A stretch of DNA of 64,000 nt from an uncultured Clostridia bacterium (GTDB taxonomy: Bacteria > Bacillota_A > Clostridia > TANB77 > CAG-508). The DNA lies in the NCBI GenBank assembly GCA_944393405.1, contig CALYAC010000008.1, forward strand, positions 43,354-107,353, given 5' to 3'. The translations under genes and the position numbers were made by a program. The notes under the pieces were generated by a model. It was not told where the DNA came from, ran no database searches, and was given only the letters and a program-made list of their open reading frames with translations. This document shows, one piece after another, positions 2,282 to 37,020 of this stretch. Within the stretch, counting starts at the first letter, position 1; every line of letters starts with the position of its first letter.

Positions 2282-4405
2282 TTAACTCAAAACAACACCA
2301 GATATTTCTGCACTATTTAAAATTTTACACTCTTTATTATTTTCCGTAGTTATATTAACATTTATAGAATAATTAGATGGTTGTATAACTTCTAATTTTT
2401 TGATACCACATATATAATTCTTATATATACTTACTGCTAAGCTTCCGCTTCCACAAGCTGTTTCATAATATAATGTATCTATAGTTCTTACCCATATTAT
2501 TGGATAAATTTTAATTTTGTCTTTACATTCTTCATCTATTTTTTCTGTTAAAATTATTCCAACTGCATTTTCATTTGTATTAAATTTTTTCATAATTTCT
2601 TTTAGTCTTTGTTTTGCTTTTTCTTCATTCGTTTTTAATTCTTCAATATAGCTTTTAGAAGTATATTCATTTATTACTCCTAGAGTAATTCCATCTAGTT
2701 TAATTAAACAAATTCCTTCTTTTTCTTCTACTAAATTACTAATATCTTTATTAATATTCATTATTGCATATACATTTTTATTACTATCTATTCCCCCTTG
2801 TATTTTACTTTTCATTCCTGAAACTTTTATATCAATTTTTCCTTCTTTTCCGCTTAAGTATTGCCATATTGCACATCTTGTTGCATTTACGCAAAATTCT
2901 CCCCCTGCCATATTTAATTTCTTTTCCTTTGTACTTATAAATCCTACTTGTTCAACATCTATATTTTCTTTTAAAATTTCATCATTAATTATCTTTTTTT
3001 CGTCTTTACTATATTCATCTCCTATAACTAATGCTGTTTTATTACCACCAGGATTGAAAATCTTATATGTGTATTTTCTTTTTAAATTATTATTTGAATT
3101 ATAATTAGAATCATCTATATTTTTTAATTCCTCTATAACTGTATTTATATCTATAATTTTCTGCAAATTAGTTTCCATATTCTTTAATATAATTTTATTT
3201 TCTTTTAGTTCTTCTTCTCCAATAATTATTACATATGGTATTTTTTCATAATTTGCATAATCTAAAGATTTTCTTAGTTTCTTATCATTCATTTCTATAT
3301 CAGTATTTATTCCATTTTTTCTTAATTTATTTGCTATCTTTAATGCCTCTACTTTATTATTCATTGGTATGATATATACTAAAGTATTATTAGTTTTAAC
3401 ACTATTCTTCTTTTTTAAAATTTCAAATATAACATCTAGACCAAAACTAACACCAACTGCTGGATATTTTTTACCATTTCCTATAAAATCTCCTATCATT
3501 TTGTCATATCTTCCTCCACCTCCAATGCTAGATTTTATTTCACCAGTTTTTATATATGCTTCAAATATTGTTCCAGTATAATATTCTTGTCCTCTTGCAA
3601 GTGATGAACTAAACTCTACATATTTATTTAATTCTAGTTTCTCGATATATTCATTTAATTTGTCTATTTCTTGTATTCCTTCTCTTAATTCTACATTATC
3701 TGTTGTTATGTATTTAGATTTGATTTTATCAAAATCTAGTTTCAAATTTTCCAATAATAAATTAATATTTTCAGATTTTAATCCAATATTCAAAAACTCA
3801 TTTGTAATTTCTTCTTTAGATAATTTATCAAATTTATCAATTATAGTGATGGCTTTATCTATCTTTTCATCCTCTATTTTACTCTCTTTAATTAATCCAC
3901 TCATTAATTTTCTATTATTATATTTTATAACTACATCAATACCTAGTTTTGAATATCCTTCTACTAATAATGCAATTATTTCTGCTTCTACCATTTGTCC
4001 TTCTATTCCTACACTATCAACATCACATTGAATAAATTCTCTTAGTCTACCTTGTTTTACTGGTCCATCTCTAAACACTTTTCCTATTTCATATCTTTTA
4101 TATGGCATCTTTATCTCTGGATTTATCGCTATATATTTTGCAAATGGAACAGTTAAATCATATCTTAATGCTAAATTTCTATTTCCCTGATCTTGCACTT
4201 TATATATTTCTTTCAAAATATCATTATTCTCATCGTATTTTAAAGCCAATAAATCATAGTAGCATAGTATAGATGTAGAAAGTGGTTTGTATCCATATCT
4301 TTCAAATACTTCTTTTAATGTGTTTTCTATATAATTTCGTATAACTTGATCATTTCCTCCAAAATCAATGCTTCCTTTTACATTACTTAATTCTAAATTT
4401 TTCAT
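2282..4405 (-). CDS. hisS: Histidyl-tRNA synthetase fused to CntK-like histidine racemase domain
   Basis: 707 aa from the ATG at 4405 (AAAGG ten bases upstream; a TTG at 4414 is the alternative). Residues 1 to about 430 are a complete HisRS: class II motif 2 (RYEIGKVFRDGP, then GRLREFIQCD), a histidine-binding motif in the variant form LARGQEYYTGTIFEA, GGGGRYDKMIG and VGVSFGLD, then the anticodon-binding domain. Residues from about 443 to the end (2282-3079) form a DapF-fold domain resembling CntK, the histidine racemase of staphylopine synthesis: FNPGGNKTALV, EQVGFIS, MAGGEFCVNATR, KVSG and ETACGSGSLAVS. Both catalytic cysteines are kept (about residues 505 and 651). Usual HisRS proteins end near residue 430. 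A genuine DapF is encoded separately at 36.1 kb, so this is not the lysine-pathway enzyme. Fusion is seen; racemase activity and its purpose are inferred. Confidence 0.93.
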   Translation of the reverse strand: MKNLELSNVKGSIDFGGNDQVIRNYIENTLKEVFERYGYKPLSTSILCYYDLLALKYDENNDILKEIYKVQDQGNRNLALRYDLTVPFAKYIAINPEIKMPYKRYEIGKVFRDGPVKQGRLREFIQCDVDSVGIEGQMVEAEIIALLVEGYSKLGIDVVIKYNNRKLMSGLIKESKIEDEKIDKAITIIDKFDKLSKEEITNEFLNIGLKSENINLLLENLKLDFDKIKSKYITTDNVELREGIQEIDKLNEYIEKLELNKYVEFSSSLARGQEYYTGTIFEAYIKTGEIKSSIGGGGRYDKMIGDFIGNGKKYPAVGVSFGLDVIFEILKKKNSVKTNNTLVYIIPMNNKVEALKIANKLRKNGINTDIEMNDKKLRKSLDYANYEKIPYVIIIGEEELKENKIILKNMETNLQKIIDINTVIEELKNIDDSNYNSNNNLKRKYTYKIFNPGGNKTALVIGDEYSKDEKKIINDEILKENIDVEQVGFISTKEKKLNMAGGEFCVNATRCAIWQYLSGKEGKIDIKVSGMKSKIQGGIDSNKNVYAIMNINKDISNLVEEKEGICLIKLDGITLGVINEYTSKSYIEELKTNEEKAKQRLKEIMKKFNTNENAVGIILTEKIDEECKDKIKIYPIIWVRTIDTLYYETACGSGSLAVSIYKNYICGIKKLEVIQPSNYSINVNITTENNKECKILNSAEISGVVLS

Positions 4406-4527: not shown

Positions 4528-4573
4528 AAAAAAAGACTACTCGTAGTTTTATTTTCCTACAAATAGTCTTTTT
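4528..4573 (-). terminator. Leader terminator of the hisS attenuator
   Basis: On the minus strand a 17-bp stem (4557-4573 with 4530-4546, closed by Watson-Crick and G-U pairs) is followed by seven U residues, about 120 bp before the hisS start. It is a textbook intrinsic terminator placed inside the leader. The 5' arm contains a GUAGG segment (4556-4560) that can instead pair with an upstream CCUAC segment (4610-4614), so it can be undone. Confidence 0.82.
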
Positions 4574-4591
4574 AATATATCTATCAATTTT

Positions 4592-4701
4592 GAATATTTT
4601 TAAACTATCGTAGGTACACGCCAAATTTGCCTGTACCTACAACCTATTTTGCTGTAGTTACAAGCTCCTACGATGATGATGTAATTGGTTTAAAAATATT
4701 C
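4592..4701 (-). promoter_or_regulatory. hisS transcription attenuator: competing RNA hairpins
   Basis: Between the leader ORF and the terminator several segments compete on the minus strand. Segment 1 (4651-4657) pairs over 7 bp with segment 2 (4637-4643). Segment 2 also pairs over 9 perfect bp with segment 3 (4632-4640 with 4610-4618). Segment 3 pairs over 7 bp with the 5' arm of the terminator. A further perfect 14-bp helix (4688-4701 with 4592-4605), continued by 4667-4674 with 4607-4614, folds the leader ORF when it is not translated. I infer that stalling at His codons frees segment 1, so 1:2 and 3:terminator-arm form and hisS is read; completed translation covers segment 1 and termination follows. 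The T-box consensus (GGUGGNACCGCG) is absent. Confidence 0.72.
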
Positions 4702-4711
4702 TTAGTTTCAT
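4658..4711 (-). CDS. hisS leader peptide with three consecutive His codons
   Basis: A 17-codon ORF, peptide MKLRIFLNQLHHHRRSL, begins at an ATG at 4711 with AGAGG seven bases upstream and ends at TAA 4658-4660. The three histidine codons (CAT CAT CAT, 4673-4681) are followed by CGT and AGG, arginine codons that look uncommon beside the AGA used in neighbouring genes. It lies 26 bases after the predicted transcript start and immediately before alternative hairpins and a terminator. Position, size and codon content match leader peptides of amino-acid biosynthetic operons such as his and trp in enterobacteria; here the regulated gene is the synthetase. Confidence 0.75.
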   Translation of the reverse strand: MKLRIFLNQLHHHRRSL

Positions 4712-4743: not shown

Positions 4744-4772
4744 ATTTTAGCATATATTATTATATATGTCAA
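4744..4772 (-). promoter_or_regulatory. hisS promoter (sigma-A type)
   Basis: On the minus strand TTGACA (4767-4772), a 17-bp spacer and TAAAAT (4744-4749). The transcript would start near 4737, just before the ribosome site of the leader peptide. Confidence 0.75.
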
Positions 4773-9233: not shown

Positions 9234-9551
9234 TTATAAAATGATATCTAAAATATCACATATATTAATTTCTTCTAAGTCATCAATTATTATTTTCTTT
9301 TTTATATAATTTATCTTAGTTATCATTCCTTCTATTTGTATATATTTATTATTTTTATAATACTTTATTTTAATTTTGTTTCCTTGTTTTATTCTATTAA
9401 ATTTATCTTGTAATTCTTCTAGACTTTCTTCTGATAATTCTATTTTTTCATCATATTCCATTTCTTTTTCTATTTGTCTTAACGCTTCTTGAAGACCTGT
9501 TAATGCATCAAATGGTAAAAATTGTTTTGCTCTTTCTATTCTACTCACCAC
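9234..9551 (-). CDS. YolD-like protein
   Basis: 105 aa. The N-terminal motif SRIERAKQFLPFDALTGLQEALRQ is the hallmark of YolD-like proteins, which are encoded next to Y-family polymerases in Firmicutes and are thought to play a role like UmuD's. The start is a GTG at 9551, preceded by AGGAGG; a second GTG follows directly. Its first codons overlap the last codons of the polymerase gene, so translation is probably coupled. Confidence 0.85.
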   Translation of the reverse strand: MVSRIERAKQFLPFDALTGLQEALRQIEKEMEYDEKIELSEESLEELQDKFNRIKQGNKIKIKYYKNNKYIQIEGMITKINYIKKKIIIDDLEEINICDILDIIL

Positions 9552-10801
9552 CGGTTATGACCTCCTATTAATCTATTTCTTATCATTGTAGTAGCTCCAT
9601 CTTCAAAGTTCATTCCTCTTAATATTTTATTTTTTCCCATGCTATTTTTTATATTACAGATTGTAAGTTCTAATTTCTTCTCTTTATCTACTTTCTTTTG
9701 GTCTGTAAACAAATTAAGTTGAACATTGTTTTCTTCAATCACATTTTCAAAGCTAATTCCAATTCTTCTTATAGGAACACTTCTATTAGTTGTCTTATCA
9801 TAGATTAGTAAAAATTCTTTTAAAAGTTCTGAATATATATTAGTATAGTTATTGATTCTTTTTGAGCCTCCTGTAGATGGAATTACATTTTTTGAATATC
9901 CTATATATAGATGTATTACATCTGTCACTAAATTTTTTTCTATTAGTCTTAAACTTCCAAGTTCAACCATTTCTTTTAATACTAATCTAGTCTTTTCAAA
10001 TGAATAATCTTCAAATAATATTTGATTGTTTGAAATTGAATTTGTTTTTGGCTTGTATGCCTTTATATCTGCAATAGTGCAAGATTCTTTTCCCCAAGCA
10101 TGATCAATTATATATTCTGCATTTATTCCAAACTCTTTATACAGCTTTCTTTGATTTGCTGTTGCTATATCATGCATATCATATATTCCTAGCCTATTTA
10201 ATCTTTTTTCTATTCCTTTTCCTATTTGCCAAAAATCATTAAGAGGTCTATGATACCATAATTCTTTTTTATATTTTTCTTCATCTAAATAACCTATATT
10301 ATTTACACTATGTTTTGCAGTAATATCTAGTGCTATTTTTGCTAAATATAAATTTGTTCCTATTCCTGCTGTTGCTGTTATTCCGTAATTATCATATATA
10401 TCTTTTATAATAGTTTTAGCAAGCTTTATAGGAGATTTATTATATAATTTAAAATAATTAGTTGCATCTATAAAAGCTTCATCGATTGAATACACATGTA
10501 TATCATTTTTTGAAAAATATTTTAAATAAACCCTATAAATATTAGCAGAATATTCTATATATTTCTTCATCCTTGGCATTGCTATTATATATTTTATATT
10601 CTTTGGTATTTCAAAAATCCTGCACCTATTTTTTACTCCTAACATTTTCATTTTAGGAGATACCGCTAAACATATTGTGCCCTTACCTCGTGTTTCATCT
10701 GCTACTACTAAATTAGTATTAAATGGATCTAAACCTCTTTCAACACATTCTACAGATGCATAAAAAGTTTTTAAATCTATACACATATATATTTTTTGCA
10801 T
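9545..10801 (-). CDS. Y-family DNA polymerase, UvrX/YqjW type
   Basis: 418 aa. Catalytic acidic residues are D9 (MCIDLKTFYASVE) and D107/E108 (YSIDEAF), the two-metal site of translesion polymerases. The HhH region (GIGKGIEKRLNRLGI pattern near residue 195) and the little-finger domain follow. Pairing with a yolD gene and an SOS-like operator in the promoter mark it as the SOS-inducible UvrX/YqjW branch. A second Y-family gene (dinB) lies at 31 kb. It works in error-prone bypass of damaged template. Confidence 0.88.
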   Translation of the reverse strand: MQKIYMCIDLKTFYASVECVERGLDPFNTNLVVADETRGKGTICLAVSPKMKMLGVKNRCRIFEIPKNIKYIIAMPRMKKYIEYSANIYRVYLKYFSKNDIHVYSIDEAFIDATNYFKLYNKSPIKLAKTIIKDIYDNYGITATAGIGTNLYLAKIALDITAKHSVNNIGYLDEEKYKKELWYHRPLNDFWQIGKGIEKRLNRLGIYDMHDIATANQRKLYKEFGINAEYIIDHAWGKESCTIADIKAYKPKTNSISNNQILFEDYSFEKTRLVLKEMVELGSLRLIEKNLVTDVIHLYIGYSKNVIPSTGGSKRINNYTNIYSELLKEFLLIYDKTTNRSVPIRRIGISFENVIEENNVQLNLFTDQKKVDKEKKLELTICNIKNSMGKNKILRGMNFEDGATTMIRNRLIGGHNRW

Positions 10802-31015: not shown

Positions 31016-32236
31016 TTATACATCTTTTAACTTTATGATATCTTCTGAATGCAATTTTCCAGCTCTAGTCACACTTGTATATCCATATTTATCTTTTAAT
31101 TTGTCTACAACTTCATCTAATTTTTCTTGTTTTTTTTCTGTATCTCCTGTAAATAAAGATAATTGTACTTCATCCTTATCAATTAGGTTATCTACTCTAA
31201 CTCCTACTAATCTAATAAATGTACCTTTTTTATACATTTCATTTAATAGTTCTTTTGCTACTCTATATATTTCCTTTGTATTTGAAGTAGCATATAGTAG
31301 CTTTTTTTGATGAGAAGAATCTTTAAAGTCTTTAGTTCTTAGTTGAACATTTACAACATTTGCATACATTTTATATTTTCTTAATCTATATGTAACTTGT
31401 TCAGTAAGTGTTAATAATACTTCTTCTAGTTTTTCTTTGCTACTTATATCAACAGGTAATGTTACTGAATTACCTATTCCTTTTGGTTTTTCTTCTAAGT
31501 AATTTACTTCAGAATTATCTATACCATTAGAATATTCCCACATCATTAAGCCATGCTTACCAAATTTTTTTATCATTAATTCTCTATTTTGTCTAGCTAA
31601 ATCTCCTATTGTTTTTATTCTCATATTATATAATTTTGGTAATGTTTTCTTTCCTAGCATAAATAATTCAGATACTGGAAGTGTCCACATTTTATCTGGA
31701 ATTTCTTCTTCAAACAATGTATGAACTCTATCTGGTTTGGTAAAGTCAGATGCCATCTTAGCTAGTAGTTTATTATGAGCAACTCCTACATTTACAGTAA
31801 ATCCCAGTTCCTTTTTTACTCTATCTTTTATTTCATATGCTTTATTTACTAAAGTATCATTTCCTAAATATTCTGTCATATCTAAAAAACACTCATCTAT
31901 ACTAAATCTTTCTATTTTATTAGTGTATTCTGACAAAATCTTAAATAAGTCATTTGAATGTTTTCTATAGCTTTTATATTCTCCTTTAAAAACTTGTAAA
32001 TTAGGGCATTTTAATCGTGCTTGATATAATGTTTCTCCTGTACATACACCTTTTCTCTTTGCTTTCATACTTTTAGCAAGTACAATTCCTGATCTTTTAG
32101 TTTCATCCCCTCCTATAACAGCTTCAATATTCCTAATATCAAGTTTTTCTCCATTTTCTAATCTATCTATTGCTGTCCAACTTAAAAATGCATTATTAAC
32201 ATCTATATGTAATATTTGTCTTTGTTTATCTTCCAT
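31016..32236 (-). CDS. dinB: DNA polymerase IV (Y family)
   Basis: 406 aa from the ATG at 32236. The promoter's -10 lies at 32252-32257, so an in-frame codon at 32263 is upstream of the transcript and cannot be the start. Catalytic residues are D12 (HIDVNNAFLSW) and D114/E115 (FSIDECFLD). The HhH segment (LGKKTLPKLYNMRIKTIGDL) and little finger follow. It is the second Y-family polymerase here. The C-terminus carries a clamp-binding-like VQLSLFTG. Control by an SOS-like operator is indicated. Confidence 0.92.
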   Translation of the reverse strand: MEDKQRQILHIDVNNAFLSWTAIDRLENGEKLDIRNIEAVIGGDETKRSGIVLAKSMKAKRKGVCTGETLYQARLKCPNLQVFKGEYKSYRKHSNDLFKILSEYTNKIERFSIDECFLDMTEYLGNDTLVNKAYEIKDRVKKELGFTVNVGVAHNKLLAKMASDFTKPDRVHTLFEEEIPDKMWTLPVSELFMLGKKTLPKLYNMRIKTIGDLARQNRELMIKKFGKHGLMMWEYSNGIDNSEVNYLEEKPKGIGNSVTLPVDISSKEKLEEVLLTLTEQVTYRLRKYKMYANVVNVQLRTKDFKDSSHQKKLLYATSNTKEIYRVAKELLNEMYKKGTFIRLVGVRVDNLIDKDEVQLSLFTGDTEKKQEKLDEVVDKLKDKYGYTSVTRAGKLHSEDIIKLKDV

Positions 32237-32251
32237 ATTACCACCAGCCTC

Positions 32252-32280
32252 ATTATAAAACATAAGTTTGTGTATGTCAA
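32252..32280 (-). promoter_or_regulatory. dinB promoter with SOS-like operator in the spacer
   Basis: On the minus strand TTGACA (32275-32280), 17-bp spacer and TATAAT (32252-32257). The dyad AAAC-ATAA-GTTT (plus strand, 32258-32269) lies between the two boxes, where bound repressor would block polymerase. Confidence 0.68.
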
Positions 32281-34364: not shown

Positions 34365-34799
34365 ATGGAAGATGTAACAATATATACTGATGGTGCTTGT
34401 TCAGGTAATCCTGGTCCTGGTGGTTGGGGAGCAATTCTTATGTATAAAGATTACAAGAAAGAAATATCTGGTGGTAAAAAAGATACAACTAACAATGTTA
34501 TGGAACTTACAGCAGTTATAGAAGCTTTAAAGCTACTAAAATTTCCTTGTAATGTTAAATTATATAGTGATAGTGCATATGTTGTAAATGCATTTATTCA
34601 AAAATGGGTTATTAATTGGCAAAAAAATAATTGGAAAACATCAGATAAAAAAGATGTAAAAAATAAAGAGTTATGGCAAGAATTAATTGAGCTTACTAAT
34701 ATTCATCATATTGAATTTATAAAAGTTAAAGGCCATAGTGATAATGAATATAATAATCGTTGTGATGAAATGGCTAGAAATGCAATAATGTCGCTTTAA
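34365..34799 (+). CDS. rnhA: Ribonuclease HI
   Basis: 144 aa from the ATG at 34365, directly after GGAGGAACTT; a TTG twelve bases earlier overlaps the ribosome site. Catalytic residues are D9 ([17 protein letters not shown]), E47 (NNVMELTAV), D69 (LYSDSAYVV) and the final D in NRCDEMARN. It removes RNA from RNA-DNA hybrids. The stop codon overlaps that of the convergent dapL gene within a shared hairpin. Confidence 0.95.
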
Positions 34800-34813
34800 A
34801 AAGCGGCATTATT
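34784..34813. terminator. Shared terminator built from both convergent stop codons
   Basis: The inverted repeat 34784-34795 with 34802-34813 (AATAATGtCGCT-type arms) flanks a short loop in which the rnhA TAA (34797-34799) and the dapL stop (34796-34798) overlap. A/T tracts on both sides would end transcripts from either direction. Confidence 0.8.
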
Positions 34814-36040
34814 TTTTAATCTTTCTATTGCTTCTATAGTTTTAAATTTATTACCAAATGCTGTTAATCTAAAAAATCCTTCTCCATTTGTTCCAAATCC
34901 TATTCCAGGAGTTCCAACTATATTATACCTATTTAATAACAAATCAAAAAAGTCCCATGATTTCATATTGTTTGGAGTTTTTAACCATATATATGGTGAG
35001 TTAATTCCTCCATATGTCTTTATTCCTATTTGCTCCAATCCATTTTTTATAATTTTAGCATTTTCCATGTAATACATAATATTTTCCTTTATTTTTTCTT
35101 TTCCTTCTTTAGAATATGTACTTTTAGCTCCTCTTTGGGTAATATATGATATACCATTAAATTTAGTTGATTGTCTCCTATTCCATAATTTATTTAAACT
35201 AATCTTTCGATTATCTGTAATTACTTCTATATCTTTTGGAATTATTGTATATGCACATCTTATTCCTGTAAATCCAGCTGTTTTTGAAAAACTCTTAAAT
35301 TCAATTGCTACATCCTTTGCTCCTTCAATTTCATATATGCTATGAGGAATATCTTTTTTTGTTATAAAGGCTTCATATGCAGCATCAAATAATATTATGC
35401 TTTTATATTTTTTAGCAAATTTAACCCATTTTTCTAATACTTCTTTATTTAATGCTGTTCCTGTTGGATTATTCGGTGAACATATATATATTAAATCTGG
35501 TATTGTATTATTTTCCTCTAACTCATCTGGAATAGGACTAAAATTATTTTCTTCTGTTAAATTAATATATATTATATTTTCATATTTATTCTGCTCTTTA
35601 ATATATTCTCCACTGGTTCCGTATATTATATTACTGTCTAAATATACAGGATATACCGGATTTGGTATTCCTATTTTTATGTTTTTATCAAATAATTCTA
35701 TAATATTTCCAGTATCACATTTAGCACCATCAGATATAAATATTTCATCAATATCAATATTTAAATCGCTATACTCATTTTCTAAAATTGCTTTTCTTAA
35801 AAATTCATATCCTTGTTCTGGTCCATATCCTTTAAAAGTATTTTCATATTTTAACTCTTCTATAGCTTTCTTCATTTCTTCTGCTACATAGTTAGGAATT
35901 GGTCTTGTTACATCACCAATTCCTAGCTTAATTATATTAGCTTTTGGATTTTCTTTTAAATAATTTGCTACCTTTTTATTTATATCTGAAAATAGATAAT
36001 TGTCTTGTAGTTTTAAAAAGTTTTTATTTATTTTTATCAC
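34796..36040 (-). CDS. dapL: LL-diaminopimelate aminotransferase
   Basis: 414 aa, fold-type I PLP enzyme. The PLP lysine is in [18 protein letters not shown], and typical DapL stretches are [48 protein letters not shown] and [20 protein letters not shown]. It converts tetrahydrodipicolinate directly to LL-diaminopimelate, the one-step route found in some clostridia. The start is a GTG at 36040 after GGAGGG. It follows dapF in the same direction, together completing meso-DAP synthesis for peptidoglycan and lysine. Confidence 0.95.
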
Positions 36041-36126: not shown

Positions 36127-36972
36127 CTATAAATTTAAACTACCTTCAAACACAGTTTCTGCTGGTCCTTGCATATATATGTGATTATCCTTAGACCATT
36201 CTATTTTTAACTTACCTCCTGGTAATTCTACATTTACTATTTCATCTGTATAACCATTTATTCCAGATGCAACAACAGCAGCACATGCACCTGTTCCACA
36301 TGCAAATGTTTCTCCAACTCCTCTTTCCCATACTCGTAACTTTATATTATTTTTATCATTAATTTGAACAAATTCTACATTTGTTCTATTAGGAAATATA
36401 GGGTTATTCTCTACAAGTGGTCCAATTTTTTCTATCTGTATTTCATCTAAATTTTCTACAAATGTAACTGCATGAGGATTTCCCATAGATACTACTGTAA
36501 ATCTCATTTTTTTACCATCTATATCTATGTCTAGGTCTTTATTAAAAGCTTCATACACATTATATGGAATATTTTTATCTTGAAATAAAGGCTCTCCCAT
36601 ATCAACTATGCTTTCTTTACAATTTCCTTTGCTATCTTCTAATATTTTTACTTTCTTTATTCCAGCAAGTGTCTGTATCGATAATTTATCTTTAGAAGAT
36701 AAGTTTTTATCATGTATGAATTTTGCAACGCATCTTATTCCATTTCCACACATCTCTGCTTCACTACCATCACTATTATATATTTTCATCTTAAAATCTG
36801 CTTTTTCATCATCAGGCTTATCAATTAATATTATTCCATCTGCACCAATACCAAAATGTCTATCACTTAATTTTTTTGTGACGTTTTGGATATCTTTTAT
36901 TTTCTTTCCATCTGTACAATCAATATATATATAATCATTTCCTATACCAGTCATTTTAGTAAAATTTAGCAT
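36127..36972 (-). CDS. dapF: Diaminopimelate epimerase
   Basis: 281 aa from the ATG at 36972, preceded by GAGGTGG. The two active-site cysteines are in AEMCGNGIRC and FACGTGACA, with MTGIGNDYIYID and GADGIIL in the N-terminal domain. It converts LL- to meso-diaminopimelate. Its motifs differ clearly from the racemase-like domain fused to hisS (GEFCVNATR and ETACGSG). Forms a unit with dapL. Confidence 0.97.
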   Translation of the reverse strand: MLNFTKMTGIGNDYIYIDCTDGKKIKDIQNVTKKLSDRHFGIGADGIILIDKPDDEKADFKMKIYNSDGSEAEMCGNGIRCVAKFIHDKNLSSKDKLSIQTLAGIKKVKILEDSKGNCKESIVDMGEPLFQDKNIPYNVYEAFNKDLDIDIDGKKMRFTVVSMGNPHAVTFVENLDEIQIEKIGPLVENNPIFPNRTNVEFVQINDKNNIKLRVWERGVGETFACGTGACAAVVASGINGYTDEIVNVELPGGKLKIEWSKDNHIYMQGPAETVFEGSLNL

Positions 36973-37020
36973 ATATACCACCTCTTAAATTTAATATATG
37001 CTAAATTTATAAATTTATAC

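Follow-up and report, generated by a model that had tools for sequence, protein, structure and literature searches.

A gene joining a histidyl-tRNA synthetase to a histidine-racemase-like domain behind a predicted histidine attenuator in an uncultured Clostridia bacterium

Why would a bacterium join the enzyme that consumes L-histidine for translation to a second one that could invert it? The question is raised by a gene of an uncultured Clostridia bacterium (GenBank assembly GCA_944393405.1, contig CALYAC010000008.1), which we analysed within a stretch of 64,000 nucleotides, hereafter the window. An earlier note on this DNA had described a histidyl-tRNA synthetase (HisRS) carrying in frame a racemase domain of the CntK type with both catalytic cysteines, and this description holds: the gene is a single unbroken frame with an ATG start, and C505 and C651 align with the cysteine pair of the racemases (Table 1). 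The same architecture recurs in other assemblies, so the fusion is no assembly artefact. Both halves display dN lower than dS in six of six pairs compared; between the window gene and that of locus L004, dN/dS are 0.136/0.866 for the HisRS half and 0.237/0.886 for the racemase half.

Table 1. Features of the fused gene and of its upstream region (positions within the window)
Feature	Positions	Strand	Basis or remark
Fused gene, HisRS plus histidine-racemase-like domain, 707 aa	2282..4405	(-)	Frame, Pfam and NCBIfam matches
HisRS half, residues 1-430, PRK12420-like lineage	3116..4405	(-)	GVSFGLDVIF without motif-3 Arg; FRDG in motif 2
DapF-fold racemase-like domain, residues 443-707 plus stop	2282..3079	(-)	Sequence and structure matches
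Cys505 codon, first catalytic-type cysteine	2891..2893	(-)	Aligned with HisR Cys67 (numbering of PMC11602996, from excerpts)
Cys651 codon, second catalytic-type cysteine	2453..2455	(-)	Aligned with HisR Cys209 (numbering of PMC11602996, from excerpts)
Promoter-like site	4744..4772	(-)	TTGACA 4772-4767, TAAAAT 4749-4744, 17 bases apart; sequence only
Leader peptide ORF MKLRIFLNQLHHHRRSL	4658..4711	(-)	Three tandem His codons at 4681-4673
Predicted attenuator hairpin 1:2	4637..4657	(-)	Starts right after the leader stop codon
Predicted attenuator hairpin 2:3 (GTAGGTACA / TGTACCTAC)	4604..4643	(-)	3' arm can alternatively pair with the terminator 5' arm (3:4)
Predicted intrinsic terminator 4:5 with U run	4528..4573	(-)	Alignment and folding

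The identity of the racemase-like domain was approached with profiles, sequences and structure models. Residues 446-696 match the NCBIfam CntK model (NF033599) with 74.7-78.2 bits against a cut-off of 300, and residues 447-679 match that of the Fusobacterium HisR (NF052224) with 62.4-66.6 bits against a cut-off of 400. Since both curated cut-offs are missed, the domain is considered a related branch and not an equivalog of either enzyme. No match to PF01678 (DapF) is listed at E ≤ 1 for the whole fused protein, and none to TIGR00652 (DapF) at E ≤ 0.01 for the domain. The top PDB sequence matches are HisR (9cr1/9cr6, 58 bits) and then CntK (6l4l, 45 bits). When the domain model (pLDDT 96.3) was compared by Foldseek, ranks 1-9 went exclusively to chains of HisR or CntK (E 1.0e-19 to 4.0e-15) and the first DapF came at rank 10 (E 1.3e-10), with TM-scores of 0.63-0.70 for HisR/CntK versus 0.58-0.64 for the DapFs in ranks 10-20. 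Identity to the characterised racemases is only 22-26%. The motifs and cysteines of the CntK pattern proposed in the earlier note are kept, except that the second cysteine motif reads ETACGSGS and not SCGSG; likewise, its label "CntK-type" is right as to the nearest relatives and too narrow for a separate branch that scores below both cut-offs and has a valine after the first cysteine. This residue, Val506, stands where HisR has G68, proposed to contact the carboxylate, and the fused rows of the alignment are non-Gly at that position; the positions aligned with HisR N18, E49, E65, N69, E206 and S211, which are proposed histidine contacts, are all kept (the histidine-contact sites are a proposal of PMC11602996; this and the other papers are cited from excerpts). 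The position of E65 is also Glu in the window's own DapF, a true DapF gene (36127-36981) which the earlier note had placed elsewhere in the window and which adjoins a class I/II aminotransferase gene (34796-36040). Overall, fold and two-cysteine pattern place the domain nearest the HisR/CntK histidine racemases and racemisation is predicted, with histidine as its likely substrate.

A first indication of when this protein is made comes from the region upstream of the gene, where a His-codon leader peptide, a feature absent from the earlier note, is followed by segments able to form mutually exclusive hairpins (Table 1). The stretch from promoter to gene is conserved among related loci, the TTGACA-like box is kept in many of them, and a leader peptide with tandem His codons precedes the gene in 11 of 11 fused loci, the window counted. 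In an alignment of 25 leaders, pairing in the terminator reaches 97.9%, and five of its pairs are changed on both sides, compared with 1.5 in shuffles and 0-1 when the pairing is slid; one pair occurs as CG, GC, UA and AU in 7, 7, 6 and 5 of the 25 rows, respectively. Of the 500 shuffles, 88 also reach the terminator's number of further pair types (14). In 25/25 rows a hairpin is predicted to follow the leader stop; it joins the same two ends in 21, its register being shifted in L003, L008, L019 and L053, and some of these predicted hairpins are weak (-2.5 kcal/mol), the shuffle control covering the terminator. Hairpin 2:3 pairs in all 25 rows, hardly varying, and the 3:4 antiterminator pairing, almost invariant as well, is possible in nearly all of them. 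In energy folding of the window leader with segment 1 masked, the terminator forms, as expected. When segments 1-4 are folded alone, 2:3 stays and segment 1 pairs with 4, a state which would block the terminator too, yet differs from the textbook 1:2 plus 3:4. Our confidence is lowered by this folding; judging from the sequence, a ribosome-mediated histidine attenuator ahead of the fused gene is nonetheless very likely. As for other types of control, no T-box reaches the gathering score in the window (the Rfam scan yielded four tRNAs only) or in the seven loci L001, L004, L006, L007, L021, L023 and L026 (one RNase P only), and the weak matches obtained when the window leader was scanned permissively belong to unrelated families, with no His-leader family among them.

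The leader was then considered across racemase genes in general. Among the 71 racemase genes that have at least 200 upstream bases and belong to the chosen ORF set, 28 have a mini-ORF with three His in six codons no more than 400 bases upstream, against 20 of 1155 other genes of the same loci; the p-value of 5e-25 is not to be taken literally, related loci not being independent. Two of the 28 hits (L049, L056) are unlike leaders, and no His-rich mini-ORF is seen at the remaining 43 of 71, the importer-linked racemases among them. Applied to all 20 amino acids at the racemase genes, the test gave Leu 35, His 28, Arg 26, Ile 24 and Lys 24; only for His were other genes counted for comparison.

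Of 80 genomes, about 25 of them chosen for holding the racemase, 23 contain the 26-base core of the leader (up to 3 mismatches), at 25 places in all; the reversed control gives none. The core precedes nine intact fused genes, one broken fused gene, six lone racemases and the adjoining HisRS-racemase gene pair of G023. Furthermore, it stands ahead of histidinol dehydrogenase (hisD, 575 bits) in G013, the canonical HisRS of G017, and a family-3 solute-binding protein (SBP_bac_3) in G057, G070 and G051, where a frame reading like an amino-acid permease lies downstream. These other genes tie the leader to histidine supply. Leaders rich in His are likewise found before the racemase genes of two Bacilli loci, L042 and L047, and before the racemase-GNAT gene of a Roizmanbacterium (L039). 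A stand-alone GNAT is found behind the histidine leader in G001, G029 and G056 (L164:1698-2276, L166:746-1327 and L172:747-1325), 43-45% identical to the GNAT of the racemase-GNAT fusion P0073. A second leader type, whose conserved core is HHVWSE(N/Y)HPY, is found before the racemase genes in L015 (upstream of 9986) and L017 (upstream of 3666) and before the M20-racemase pair in L016 (upstream of 8910).

A mechanism can be proposed on these grounds. When charged tRNA-His is scarce, the ribosome would stall at the three His codons of the leader, leaving segment 1 free; the terminator 5' arm would be captured in 3:4 (for the window, energy folding gives 1:4), allowing transcription of the fused gene. 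Conversely, translation reaching the leader stop would cover segment 1, so that 2:3 would form and the terminator would halt transcription. The leader thus ties expression to a shortage of charged tRNA-His, and the production of a racemase at histidine scarcity is best explained by the recovery of L-histidine from D-histidine. The racemase domain would interconvert the two enantiomers by two-cysteine chemistry, and a net flow from D to L would follow because two synthetases, the auxiliary one attached to it and the resident one, use L-histidine in charging tRNA-His. An M20 amidohydrolase, the next gene in most fused loci, may free histidine from N-acyl or peptide forms. Attenuation tells when the gene is made, not in which direction the enzyme works. 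We rate as reasonably probable that the fused gene encodes a histidine-starvation-induced bifunctional salvage enzyme leading from D-His through L-His to His-tRNA. D-to-L salvage as the physiological role is given the same moderate weight; the substrate, the direction, the activity of either half and the role of the M20 enzyme are inferred. A stronger version, with D-His inverted under starvation and the L-His handed directly to the attached synthetase to feed translation, is tentative and the less likely of the two; in the predicted structure of the whole fused protein, the linker and a pTM of 0.45 leave the relative arrangement of the halves uncertain, and channelling between them is no more than a possibility. 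Among the roles suggested in the earlier note, scavenging of D-His is favoured by the attenuator and the genes sharing its leader, whereas production of D-His, in which a scarce amino acid would be spent, is disfavoured.

If the version with direct hand-over is true, recovery of a D-amino acid would be built into both tRNA charging and a histidine regulon to which, in relatives, an importer, a GNAT gene and an M20 hydrolase belong as well; cofactor-independent histidine racemases would then have a physiological role outside metallophore synthesis. The attenuator and the co-leader genes would offer this racemase branch a concrete one, histidine acquisition under starvation.

The distribution of the domain shows that the fusion is not a single case. 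A search for other fusions of this type, as the earlier note had suggested, returned 209 homologues of the domain; 120 of these are listed, and in 73 of them the chain also includes HisRS or HGTP domains. The other partners, counted from the Pfam columns of these 120, are 27 GNAT, 14 M15 peptidase, 4 PfkB kinase and 1 M20, with 1 homologue having nothing further. Because the domain is also fused to GNAT, M15, M20 and PfkB, a modified histidine could be the substrate. A contig scan gave 158 loci, of which the best 80 were kept. Uncultured bacteria account for almost all of these 80, and 10 of them have an intact fused gene (L001, L004, L006, L007, L021, L022, L023, L026, L027 and L028), while that of L038 is frameshifted; G037/L022 are counted as one genome, and so are G060/L038. 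The domain is present in 4/59 sampled genomes of L004's family and in 2/237 genomes of one Patescibacteria class, the centre genome being one of the two, too few carriers for statistics in the latter group. As to a mobile origin of the domain, no match appeared in the phage collection, and the single plasmid match is a Fusobacterium record; both origins were set aside.

In the racemase tree, which was built from 87 of the roughly 190 excised domains and takes in 10 of the 27 loci L054-L080, all 19 fused rows fall into a single clade of 38 (support 100) together with 3 HisRS-neighbour and 16 HisRS-less rows; to explain the fused state, 10 changes are required, or at least 6 going by starred branches. 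Both this tree and the HisRS tree described below are quick searches which gave warnings of long branches and odd composition, and for this reason gains and losses of the fusion are given as "at least". HisRS and racemase are adjoining separate genes in L013 and L043. The racemase genes of L005 and L018 seem to begin with HisRS remnants (weak tblastn hits), as do those of L020 and L024 (by eye and by DNA match), and the upstream leader of all four still matches that of the fused genes. The loss of the HisRS half, read from the tree plus these remnants, indicates that racemase and control region stay when the synthetase goes, and that the HisRS half, being lost repeatedly, is dispensable.

These losses bear on the alternative that survives best, a stereochemical safeguard in which the second HisRS would be more selective for L-His and the racemase would clear inhibitory or mischarged D-His. 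A separate second HisRS does occur in each of the nine fusion genomes examined (G001, G004, G006, G007, G017-G020 and G037, a set which excludes the genome of L027; the second HisRS of G006 is split across two contig ends), so that the fused protein would be an auxiliary enzyme beside a resident one, and TyrZ with L-Tyr provides a precedent (a table entry in PMC9437257). However, induction follows His codons, that is a lack of charged tRNA and not D-His, and the racemase stays where the HisRS half is lost; we consider a safeguard improbable. The origin of the auxiliary enzyme can be traced in the HisRS tree, from which five duplicate rows and rows shorter than 350 aa were omitted: the fused HisRSs form one clade with support 100 (20 fused and 2 adjacent rows), which adjoins stand-alone HisRSs of Bacilli assemblies and lies apart from the resident copies. 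Given this position, the fused half was probably acquired from the stand-alone lineage of these assemblies.

Among the neighbouring genes, one for an ArgE/DapE-like M20 hydrolase was measured in 20 loci, where its distance behind the racemase is -62 to +75 bases; it follows the fused gene in 9/11 fused loci, being absent beside the window gene and in L004. In a more distant racemase group, 12 loci have an importer ATPase gene (polar amino-acid, PAAT-type ABC) immediately before the racemase, and in 8 the racemase is preceded by SBP, permease and ATPase genes in that order (ATPase and permease named by profile match, SBP by similarity). An amino-acid importer operon also stands ahead of L054:9971-11425, a gene that combines a CntK/HisR-like racemase with an endonuclease III domain (228.9 bits against nth) in one protein. 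A search for hisD found none in 47 of 50 genomes, among them the nine fusion genomes and 19 of 20 relatives without the racemase; therefore, histidine auxotrophy does not single out the racemase. In contrast to these, hisD is present in 9/12 genomes with the importer ATPase directly upstream of the racemase. A D-His producer, converting L-His for a metallophore, peptidoglycan or a peptide with the HisRS merely carried along, would have its model in CntK, which does so in staphylopine synthesis (PMC7438024), and racemases are reversible. Against this stand the histidine attenuator, common to hisD and an amino-acid importer, the failure to find hisD in the nine fusion genomes, and the result of a Pfam scan of 31 window proteins (28 of the 53 ORFs of at least 150 aa plus three shorter), among which no CntL/CntM-like gene was found, in agreement with the earlier note, which had seen no metallophore synthase gene. 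We regard D-His production as unlikely, slightly more so than the safeguard.

The same low probability is assigned to a sensor, an explanation that had looked better at the start and that depends on the state of the HisRS half. Residues 25-325 match Pfam tRNA-synt_His (139.5 bits) and residues 343-429 HGTP_anticodon (60.9 bits). The TIGR00442 (hisS) score of 345.2 is above the cut-off of 286.75, while the best-scoring model, PRK12420 (NF009085), gives 498.3, below its cut-off of 540. The motif-3 arginine is a signature of class II aminoacyl-tRNA synthetases. Both this residue and the Glu of the motif-2 fRxE are missing in the fused HisRS and in all lineage rows inspected, the motif alignment taking in only HisRS rows longer than 250 aa; hence, the "complete HisRS" of the earlier note stands as to the hisS score and the anticodon domain, not as to these two residues. 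Together with the GCN2 and HisZ structures among the fold matches, these losses would suit a pseudo-synthetase, HisZ- or GCN2-like, that senses histidine or uncharged tRNA and regulates the racemase, and the lost arginine made us favour this explanation at first. It was demoted because many Bacilli assemblies yielded no HisRS other than this lineage, which has the same motif changes there; in addition, the HisZ model reaches 156.9 against a cut-off of 271.65. Outside the fusion clade, the PRK12420-like lineage is the sole HisRS found in 17 of the 21 genomes where it was met (L096, L099, L111, L113, L114, L116, L117, L120 and L133-L145), a figure made up of 17/18 genomes, most of them suspected beforehand of a single HisRS, and of G022, G091 and G095, which have two. 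This argues that the lineage charges tRNA, seemingly without the class II signature arginine.

The lineage is also plasmid-borne, in Planococcus versutus (L131:6001-7296) and Lysinibacillus fusiformis (L132:6001-7284), and both copies have a His-rich mini-ORF upstream. Such a mini-ORF precedes 5 of 21 rows of stand-alone HisRSs of the lineage, many of which have only about 200 upstream bases. Least credible of all is a resistance module, in which a second HisRS insensitive to a HisRS-directed natural product would act with GNAT, peptidase and racemase inactivating the compound: the partner set of hydrolases and GNATs, the plasmid copies and the patchy distribution of the domain (4/59 family genomes) would fit, but the leader is common to hisD and importer genes and we know of no natural product directed at HisRS.

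Salvage of D-histidine, the reading we prefer, can be set beside several known systems. HisR of Fusobacterium nucleatum (9CR1, 9CR6) shares with the window domain the DapF fold, the cysteine pair and most proposed His contacts, but it is a stand-alone protein, about 25% identical, with a Gly where the window has Val after the first cysteine, and no link to HisRS is reported in the excerpts (PMC11602996). Its authors leave its physiological role open, and their sequence network was restricted to 250-308 residues, a limit which would exclude fusions of the size of the window gene (PMC11602996). CntK of Staphylococcus aureus likewise shares the fold, the motifs NPxGNxT, EQVGFI and GxEFC and the two cysteines; it differs in belonging to the staphylopine gene cluster and making D-His for the metallophore (PMC7438024, PMC11602996). 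As for the synthetase, His leader peptides are known on Bacillus hisS* and hisZ, and hisS* is, like the fused half, an auxiliary HisRS behind a predicted His-codon leader peptide, whereas no racemase is mentioned in the excerpts (PMC2965389). Since His-rich mini-ORFs precede the Planococcus and Lysinibacillus plasmid copies, hisS* is perhaps of the same HisRS lineage. Attenuators on the his operons of Firmicutes (PMC9413887) and on that of E. coli share with the window leader a peptide with 3-5 His codons, a terminator and, by prediction here, an antiterminator; those of the cited paper control biosynthesis operons and not a HisRS-racemase fusion and lone racemases. A synthetase joined to a second catalytic domain is described in PMC9437257, with other chemistry and in the service of lipid modification; the present gene is an example of a synthetase fused to an enzyme acting, by prediction, on the same free amino acid. 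Among open-licence PMC papers, we found none joining histidine racemase and histidyl-tRNA synthetase and nothing on point for synthetase-racemase fusions; searches for a racemase under His-leader control, judged by title, and for D-His in the gut were equally unproductive. What appears new is a predicted histidine attenuator before a HisRS-racemase fusion and before many lone racemases after loss of the HisRS.

Two minor observations may be added. In P0076, P0079, P0087, P0100 and others, M15 D,D-peptidase-like and PfkB-like domains are fused to the racemase domain and may stand before or after it. Finally, the window contains two Y-family (IMS) DNA polymerase genes, at 9545-10801 and 31016-32263.
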